A DNA stretch of 38,091 nucleotides from the NCBI GenBank assembly GCA_013203465.1, contig JABMNR010000048.1:1-38091 (forward strand), in the 5' to 3' direction. Below, one piece after another: positions 852 through 2,233 of this stretch; the first letter of the stretch is position 1, and each line of letters starts with the position of its first letter. Source of the stretch: Alphaproteobacteria bacterium (GTDB lineage Bacteria > Pseudomonadota > Alphaproteobacteria > Thalassobaculales > Thalassobaculaceae). A program made the position numbers and the translations under genes. Under the pieces are notes generated by a model, which saw nothing but the letters and a program-made list of their open reading frames with translations, was not told the DNA's origin and did not search any database.

Positions 852-1352
852 TCAGCGTGTGCCTTCGCGGCTGGCCTTCAGCAAGGCGTCAGTCAAGACC
901 AACTTGGCCCGGGCGATGGCCTCGAACGGCAGCGGTGCCGTCGTACCCGGGTCGATCTCCACCAACACCCGGTTCTCGCCATCAACCCCGGCGAGCCGGC
1001 CATTGAACCGCTTTCGTCCCTCGATCGCCGGATCGACGTCGATCCGAGCGTCGAAACCGGCGAACCGACGGTAGTCCTCAAGGCGCATCAGCGGACGATC
1101 GATACCCGGCGAGCTGACCTCCAGCGTGTATTCGCTGGAGATCGGGTCCTCGACATCCAGAACCGCCGAGATCGTCCGGCTCAACTCCGCACAATTCCCC
1201 ACCGTCATCGGGCCACGATCGGCGCGCTCCGCCATGATCTGCAGCGTTGGGCGGTCGCCGCCGGTCATCATGACCCGCACGAGTTCGTACCCCATCGCCT
1301 CGATCGACGGGCCAACAATCGTCATGATGCGTCGGGTATGCACGTCCGTCAC
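852..1352 (-). CDS. rimP: Ribosome maturation factor RimP
   Basis: RimP assists maturation of the 30S ribosomal subunit in the cytoplasm. The 166-residue protein has the usual length and two-domain layout. The N-terminal alpha/beta domain contains IEAMGYELVRVMM and LQIMAER, with CAELSRTISAVLDVEDPI in the middle. The typical segment YTLEVSSPGIDRPL follows at about residues 75-90, then the C-terminal Sm-like barrel. The start is a GTG at 1350-1352, supported by GGAG and AGGAG upstream (about 1358-1367). It is the first gene of the rimP-nusA transcription unit and is preceded by a leader carrying a terminator-like hairpin (see 1352-1450). Confidence 0.95.
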   Translation of the reverse strand: MTDVHTRRIMTIVGPSIEAMGYELVRVMMTGGDRPTLQIMAERADRGPMTVGNCAELSRTISAVLDVEDPISSEYTLEVSSPGIDRPLMRLEDYRRFAGFDARIDVDPAIEGRKRFNGRLAGVDGENRVLVEIDPGTTAPLPFEAIARAKLVLTDALLKASREGTR

Positions 1353-1450
1353 GCGGTCTCCGCTCCTAATGGGGGCGGGTCGTCCGATAGGCCGGCACCA
1401 ACAAAAAAGTGGGCCGTTGGCCCACCCCCGATCGAATCTCGATGAAAGCT
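1352..1450 (-). ncRNA. Candidate rimP leader (transcription attenuator)
   Basis: The predicted transcript leader of rimP-nusA is about 98 nt. Seen in RNA order: a small hairpin (ATCGA/TCGAT, 1431-1443), a GC-rich hairpin followed directly by six U (1403-1425), then the ribosome-binding site. A 9-nt G-rich run (1421-1429, GGGGGTGGG in RNA sense) contains part of the terminator 5' arm. It can also pair with CCCGCCCCC (1371-1379), just before the AGGAG. The second arm is made after the U tract, so it is not a classical antiterminator; it could reshape the ribosome-binding region in read-through RNA. As I recall, a 'rimP leader' with a premature terminator has been predicted for Alphaproteobacteria. 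NusA feedback at this hairpin is inference. Confidence 0.55.
1403..1425 (-). terminator. Intrinsic terminator hairpin before rimP
   Basis: On the minus strand a perfect 7-bp stem GTGGGCC/GGCCCAC with a 3-nt AAC loop (1409-1425) is followed at once by TTTTTT (1403-1408). This is a textbook intrinsic terminator. It lies about 90 bases beyond the end of trmB, so it can stop metK-trmB transcripts. It also lies downstream of the likely rimP promoter, so it can act as an attenuator. Confidence 0.8.
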
Positions 1451-1456
1451 GATTGG

Positions 1457-1485
1457 GATATATCGCAACCCCACCATGATCGCAA
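1457..1485 (-). promoter_or_regulatory. Candidate promoter for rimP-nusA
   Basis: On the minus strand TTGCGA (1480-1485) is separated by 17 bases from TATATC (1457-1462), a good sigma-70-type match. It lies just past the end of trmB. Transcription would start near 1450 and run through the terminator hairpin into rimP. Confidence 0.5.
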
Positions 1486-1513: not shown

Positions 1514-2233
1514 TCAGTGACGCCGAAACTCAAGATAGGCGGGCGAACGCCCCTGACGGCGCGCCTTCGTCTCGTAACGGGTCTCGGGCCAGTCGGCGCG
1601 GCGGTCGGTGAGATCGGTGAGCTGAGTGCCGGTCCAGCGAAACCCCGGATGCGCCGTCAGCCGGGCCAGCATCCAGCGCAGATATCCAACGTCGTCGGTC
1701 GCGAGCCGCAGCAAGCCCCCCGGAACCAGCACCTCCCACATCCGGTCGAGCCACCCTCGCTGCACTAGGCGGCGGCCATGATGGCGCCGTTTCGGCCAGG
1801 GGTCCGGGTGCAACAGAAACACCCGCTCCAAACCTCCCGAAGGAAGGGCCTCGATCAGCGGTCGCGCATCGTCGGGGTGAATCCGAACGTTGCGCAGACC
1901 GCCATGAGCAATGTGGCGCAACAGCGAGGCCACACCGTTCACGAACGGCTCGCAACCGATGATGCCGACATCGGGGTTGTGCTCAGCCTGCCATGCCAGA
2001 TGCTCACCGCCGCCAAAGCCGATTTCCAGCCAAACCGCACGGACCGGCGGATCGAACACGCCGCTCAGATCGACCGTGCCGACTGTCTCGGGTGGCGGTG
2101 GCATCAGGAGATCGGGCAGCCTATTCTCGATCAACGCCTGTTGGCCTTGCCGTAGCGGCCGGCCCTTACGGCGACCGTGGAACAACGAGTGCCGCGCGTC
2201 GACGTCCCAACTCACCGCACCGGTCCGCATCAT
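1514..2233 (-). CDS. trmB: tRNA (guanine-N7)-methyltransferase TrmB
   Basis: TrmB uses S-adenosylmethionine to methylate N7 of G46 in the variable loop of tRNAs. The 239-residue protein has the class I methyltransferase glycine motif LEIGFGGGEHL near residues 69-79. The family signature HPDPWPKRRHHGRRLVQ is in the middle, and TRYETKARRQG near the C-terminus matches the conserved T-x-Y/F-E motif. The start is one of two adjacent ATG codons (2233 or 2230). It follows metK by 10 bases in the same direction, so the methyltransferase is transcribed with the enzyme that makes its methyl donor. The terminator at 1403-1425 lies downstream. Confidence 0.95.
   Translation of the reverse strand: MMRTGAVSWDVDARHSLFHGRRKGRPLRQGQQALIENRLPDLLMPPPPETVGTVDLSGVFDPPVRAVWLEIGFGGGEHLAWQAEHNPDVGIIGCEPFVNGVASLLRHIAHGGLRNVRIHPDDARPLIEALPSGGLERVFLLHPDPWPKRRHHGRRLVQRGWLDRMWEVLVPGGLLRLATDDVGYLRWMLARLTAHPGFRWTGTQLTDLTDRRADWPETRYETKARRQGRSPAYLEFRRH

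Follow-up and report, generated by a model that had tools for sequence, protein, structure and literature searches.

The window, i.e. the whole stretch of 38,091 nt of Thalassobaculaceae DNA analyzed here, has a GC-rich hairpin followed by a run of U residues between a promoter-like sequence and rimP. An earlier note on this sequence proposed that the hairpin is a terminator in the leader of the rimP-nusA operon through which NusA represses its own synthesis. The question raised by the locus is whether the hairpin belongs to this operon, and if so, what factor acts on it.

The order of genes and elements on the minus strand is metK, trmB, promoter, hairpin, rimP and nusA (Table 1); the MetK assignment is confirmed by Pfam. 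rimP is the first gene after the terminator and nusA is the second. The contig starts inside nusA, and the rest of nusA together with infB would fall beyond the contig end.

Table 1. Position of the rimP leader elements and neighboring genes in the window.
Feature	Position	Strand	Basis
nusA, N-terminal 271 codons	1..814	-	Pfam NusA_N 3e-39, S1, KH_5
rimP, GTG start at 1352	852..1352	-	Pfam RimP_N 1.6e-23, DUF150_C 7.5e-12
Shine-Dalgarno of rimP, AGGAG or GGAG	1367-1363 or 1361-1358	-	sequence
C-rich CCCGCCCCC, possible long-range partner just before the Shine-Dalgarno	1371..1379	-	duplex computation
U6 tract, expected 3′ end of the short leader RNA	1403..1408	-	sequence
Terminator hairpin GTGGGCC-AAC-GGCCCAC	1409..1425	-	sequence, terminator scan, genome pattern and covariance searches, comparison
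G-rich GGGGGTGGG, overlaps the terminator 5′ arm, possible partner after read-through	1421..1429	-	invariant in nearest relatives
Small 5-bp stem ATCGA-GAT-TCGAT directly before the terminator	1429..1441	-	fold, weak
Promoter-like pair: -35 TTGCGA 1485-1480, 17-nt spacer 1479-1463, -10 TATATC 1462-1457	1457..1485	-	sequence
trmB-type methyltransferase, upstream, same strand as rimP	1514..2233	-	Pfam Methyltransf_4 2.7e-40

The arms of the hairpin are at positions 1425–1419 and 1415–1409 and form a perfect stem of seven base pairs with the loop at 1418–1416. The U tract is separated from the rimP start by 50 nt (1402 to 1353). The features described in the earlier note are confirmed, and the coordinates of the hairpin, the U6 tract and the promoter all agree with the minus strand sequence. 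In a 6-kb scan the hairpin ranks first of six terminator-like sites, however shuffled sequences give 5.0 such sites. The scan count alone is thus uninformative, and the case is carried by comparative evidence. The pattern GGGC-N3-8-GCCC-NN-TTTT has two matches in the 4.48-Mb genome and the window site is one of these. The short leader (1447–1404) has a predicted fold of -17.0 kcal/mol (z -2.57); the whole read-through leader does not fold better than shuffles (z -0.32). The letters of the small stem ahead of the terminator vary among relatives. Apart from the loop, GATCGGGGGTGGGCCA..GGCCCACTTTTTT does not vary between the window and its seven nearest relatives.

The promoter-like pair lacks the final T that a simple promoter scan requires in the -10 box and does not pass that scan. 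In all seven nearest relatives, as in the window, TTG and TATATC occupy the same place with the same spacing. Of 149 distinct loci, 90 have a promoter-like pair, defined as TTG...TA matching the consensus at 8 or more of 12 letters, upstream of the hairpin (shuffles, 5.2), and the distance from the -10 box to GGGC in this set is mostly 25–70 nt. Transcription in the window is expected to start at about position 1450.

Occurrence of the hairpin ahead of rimP

When genome contigs were scanned for GTGGGCC-N3-GGCCCAC-TTTTTT, at least 117 loci were detected. Among the matches listed, 111 of 117 exact copies of hairpin and U6 have rimP directly downstream, i.e. a RimP profile match within 900 nt on the same strand. 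In two of the six exceptions listed the sequence stops within 100 nt past the hairpin, and the other four have no RimP match. These four (L083, L097, L100 and L132) are records from Ectothiorhodospiraceae, Verrucomicrobia, Competibacteraceae and Dehalococcoidia, and may represent ordinary terminators or carry a divergent RimP. The exact copies listed are mostly alphaproteobacterial, with several from Acidobacteriota (Holophagae, Thermoanaerobaculales); one listed copy with rimP is labelled Gammaproteobacteria.

An unbiased survey was made of the DNA upstream of 90 loci with a RimP match from 122 related genomes, where the start could be placed in 86. The motif GGGC-N3-9-GCCC followed by T4 is present within 300 nt upstream in 54 of these 86 alphaproteobacterial rimP loci, compared with 0.24 in dinucleotide shuffles and three in reverse complements. 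When the motif is not required, 69 of the 86 loci display a terminator-like hairpin within 250 nt. Fifty-five of these hairpins are of the GGGC...GCCC type and most of the others are close variants, e.g. GGTAGGC...GTCTGC. About one fifth of the surveyed rimP loci show no terminator-like hairpin upstream. Hairpin-less loci include L158, L168, L176, L186, L202 and L207, and the element seems to have been lost in parts of the class. Four of these six belong to the window's own family, and two of the four are in 1.5-Mb genomes.

Pairing in the stem is preserved despite changes on both sides at three of eight pairs in the main alignment and at four of eight in a set of variants, whose alignment was fitted to the structure. 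The changes that preserve pairing fall in outer and variant positions. Invariance of the core pairs in the main alignment is partly built in, as the sequences were selected by GGGC/GCCC; the pairing in the variant set and the motif-free survey are checks made without this selection. A covariance model built from 37 sequences outside of the window's family, so that the ranking is not circular, places the window site first in the 4.48-Mb genome (40.6 bits, E-value = 1.2e-5), with the next site at 21.3. A short model applied across the phylum gave 29 fetched loci, 25 of them outside the class; RimP lies just downstream in 12 of the 29 and is not found there in the other 17. Since these 17 include ordinary terminators, the short model is specific only within the class.

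These comparisons across rimP loci strongly support the proposal that the hairpin is the leader terminator of rimP-nusA. Comparison shows the hairpin, its location and its tie to rimP, and the sequences make it very likely that it is an attenuator belonging to this operon; that it terminates transcription inside the cell is our inference.

Other elements are found in the rimP leaders of relatives. A second conserved element, ACATTCTTG, is located near the expected transcript start, about 10–50 nt before the hairpin, in Magnetospirillum-like and some deep alphaproteobacterial leaders (L016, L024, L046, L069, L070, L092, L130, L172, L210 and others). The sequence ACATTCTT is present in 28 of 171 loci, compared with 0.1 in shuffles. 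The ACATTCTTG element is absent from the window. In L067, L069, L070, L092, L093, L129 and L130 a small C-rich/G-rich stem lies between ACATTCTTG and the terminator; by eye, its letters vary, e.g. CCCGCC...GGCGGG. An inverse CCCg...cGGG stem has been reported in rimP leaders of Gammaproteobacteria; the small stem is similar to it and might form in competition with the terminator. In Acidobacteriota (L049, L053, L056, L078, L087, L108, L123) CTGCTTTCG or a close sequence is seen by eye before the hairpin, and several of these leaders have a GCAGC stretch after it that could pair with CTGCTTTCG around the hairpin.

Known rimP leaders and the role of NusA

Naville and Gautheret (2010) found rimP to be top-ranked among genes with predicted attenuators (PMC2965389). 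The rimP-leader described there is a terminator whose stem has the unusual form GGGc...gCCC and which lies 4–130 nt before the gene in rimP-nusA-infB operons, and an antiterminator is not visible in most species (PMC2965389). The window has the same arrangement: an intrinsic terminator ahead of rimP as the first gene before nusA, a GGGc...gCCC stem followed by a U tract, a distance to the gene that is well within this range, and no larger riboswitch-like conserved element, the stem being preceded by about 25 nt and Rfam giving no match. The groups named in the published description however are Firmicutes and Gammaproteobacteria (PMC2965389), whereas the window is from an alphaproteobacterium. 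The window element is best explained as a rimP-leader, an attenuator of transcription located between rimP and a promoter belonging to the operon itself; taken together with control by NusA, this reading is quite probable.

A search with the Rfam rimP leader model, which the earlier note had suggested as a check, was negative: RF01770 has no match in the window, either at the gathering score or at E-values up to 10. Its cut-off (47 bits) is reached neither in the window nor in any of the 21 genomes searched, and among 14 control genomes the model matches only E. coli. RF01770 appears to describe the enteric form. The window element has the same position before rimP, but given these results its sequence should not be filed under RF01770.

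In the proposed mechanism, polymerase would start near position 1450 and transcribe about 25 nt before it makes the hairpin and the U6 tract. A fraction of polymerases would stop at U6 and release a short RNA of about 43–48 nt, and the remainder would continue into rimP-nusA. The product of the second gene, NusA, most likely increases termination at the hairpin, and abundant NusA would keep expression of the operon low. Premature ending of many transcripts at the hairpin most likely limits NusA output in this way.

By analogy with other systems, it is reasonably likely that NusA is the signal that controls the attenuator. It was proposed as the best candidate regulator of the rimP-leader (PMC2965389). 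NusA of Bacillus subtilis is described as autoregulated via NusA-stimulated termination in its own leader, according to a 2025 review (PMC12288461, citing Mondal et al. 2016). Both leaders have an intrinsic terminator in a nusA operon, however the NusA dependence which that review describes as shown in B. subtilis is here taken from precedent, and the B. subtilis leader is 180 nt in length (PMC2965389) compared with about 100 nt here. In Streptococcus agalactiae, RNA-seq displays termination 31 nt after the operon start and NusA feedback has been proposed (PMC4448216). The very short terminated RNA is similar to that of the window, which is predicted whereas that of S. agalactiae was detected by RNA-seq. 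E. coli has terminators t1 and t2 upstream of rimP and the operon, metY-rimP-nusA-infB, is regulated by NusA (PMC6511841). The E. coli leader differs in being longer and in containing metY, RNase III sites and several promoters.

The roughly 25 nt that precede the stem could not accommodate a sensor domain or an upstream antiterminator, and neither is visible. This would suit a constitutive partial terminator that sets a fixed low output of rimP-nusA without NusA feedback. Such a fixed terminator is unlikely though, as conservation of the stem at the letter level across phyla exceeds what it would need, and as feedback by NusA is reported for B. subtilis in the review cited above. The short RNA before the stem would also fit a factor that acts on paused polymerase.

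It is rather doubtful that the stem letters are a specific NusA or RimP site, kept from Alphaproteobacteria to Acidobacteriota, to which lineage-specific second parts add further signals. These parts would be long-range refolding in Thalassobaculaceae and the 5′-end ACATTCTTG in Magnetospirillum-like leaders.

Another RNA-binding protein, e.g. RimP, may read the hairpin instead of NusA. The stem letters are unusually constant and RimP was also named as a possible regulator by Naville and Gautheret (PMC2965389), however the experimental precedent belongs to NusA in S. agalactiae and, as far as the review describes it, in B. subtilis. Thus a reader other than NusA appears improbable.

Long-range pairing and the trmB gene

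The earlier note had also described a pairing between positions 1421–1429 and 1371–1379 that might couple read-through to translation. The pairing itself is present, with nine base pairs including one G-U and a computed duplex energy (1429–1421/1379–1371) of -22.4 kcal/mol. Equivalent segments pair better than shuffles in the window and all seven nearest relatives (L001–L008, z -2.0 to -3.4), which span three genera and thus represent few independent cases. Across the class the mean z of the equivalent pairing is -0.17 over 53 loci. By the time the C-rich segment is transcribed, polymerase has left the U tract behind; the segment therefore cannot determine whether termination occurs and could act only by refolding the read-through RNA. 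The Shine-Dalgarno sequence is predicted to become somewhat more exposed in the window and less exposed in L008, and its exposure is nearly unchanged in the other placeable loci (start codons in L002–L008 are approximate). Coupling of read-through to translation is therefore unsupported, as the accessibility shifts are inconsistent between relatives. A second layer of control, in which base pairing between the C-rich stretch and the G-rich 5′ arm after read-through tunes rimP translation, agrees with the strength of the duplex in the nearest relatives. The class-wide mean, the invariant G arm, which gives no covariation, and the differing directions of the shifts make it quite improbable.

It is very improbable that the hairpin serves solely as a 3′ terminator for trmB, or for metK-trmB, and lies before rimP by chance: it is about 90 nt beyond the trmB stop, and the window as well as 101 of 152 loci have trmB upstream in the same orientation, however a conserved promoter-like pair sits between trmB and the hairpin, 111 of the 117 listed exact copies precede rimP, TrmB was not found upstream in 51 of the 152 loci (by a single query at E-value 1e-3, so that some may have been missed), and the upstream gene is divergent in Acidobacteriota. 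In five of these (L053, L078, L087, L108, L123) a long open reading frame is directed away from rimP and starts 71–121 nt from the hairpin; that of L053, the one tested, is a Methyltransf_28 protein. The hairpin is thus kept where trmB was not found and next to a divergent neighbor, i.e. it follows rimP and is not simply a trmB terminator, the alternative that the earlier note had itself raised. It could additionally end trmB transcripts.

Significance of the element

NusA is a general termination factor. A terminator placed before its own gene would therefore constitute a simple self-metering circuit. The element is well preserved in this alphaproteobacterial relative of Thalassobaculum and is of a kind known from other bacteria. 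Within Alphaproteobacteria and some Acidobacteriota the hairpin marks rimP almost specifically; the Rfam model does not seem to cover these groups. The motif and the covariance alignment provide starting material for a broader family.
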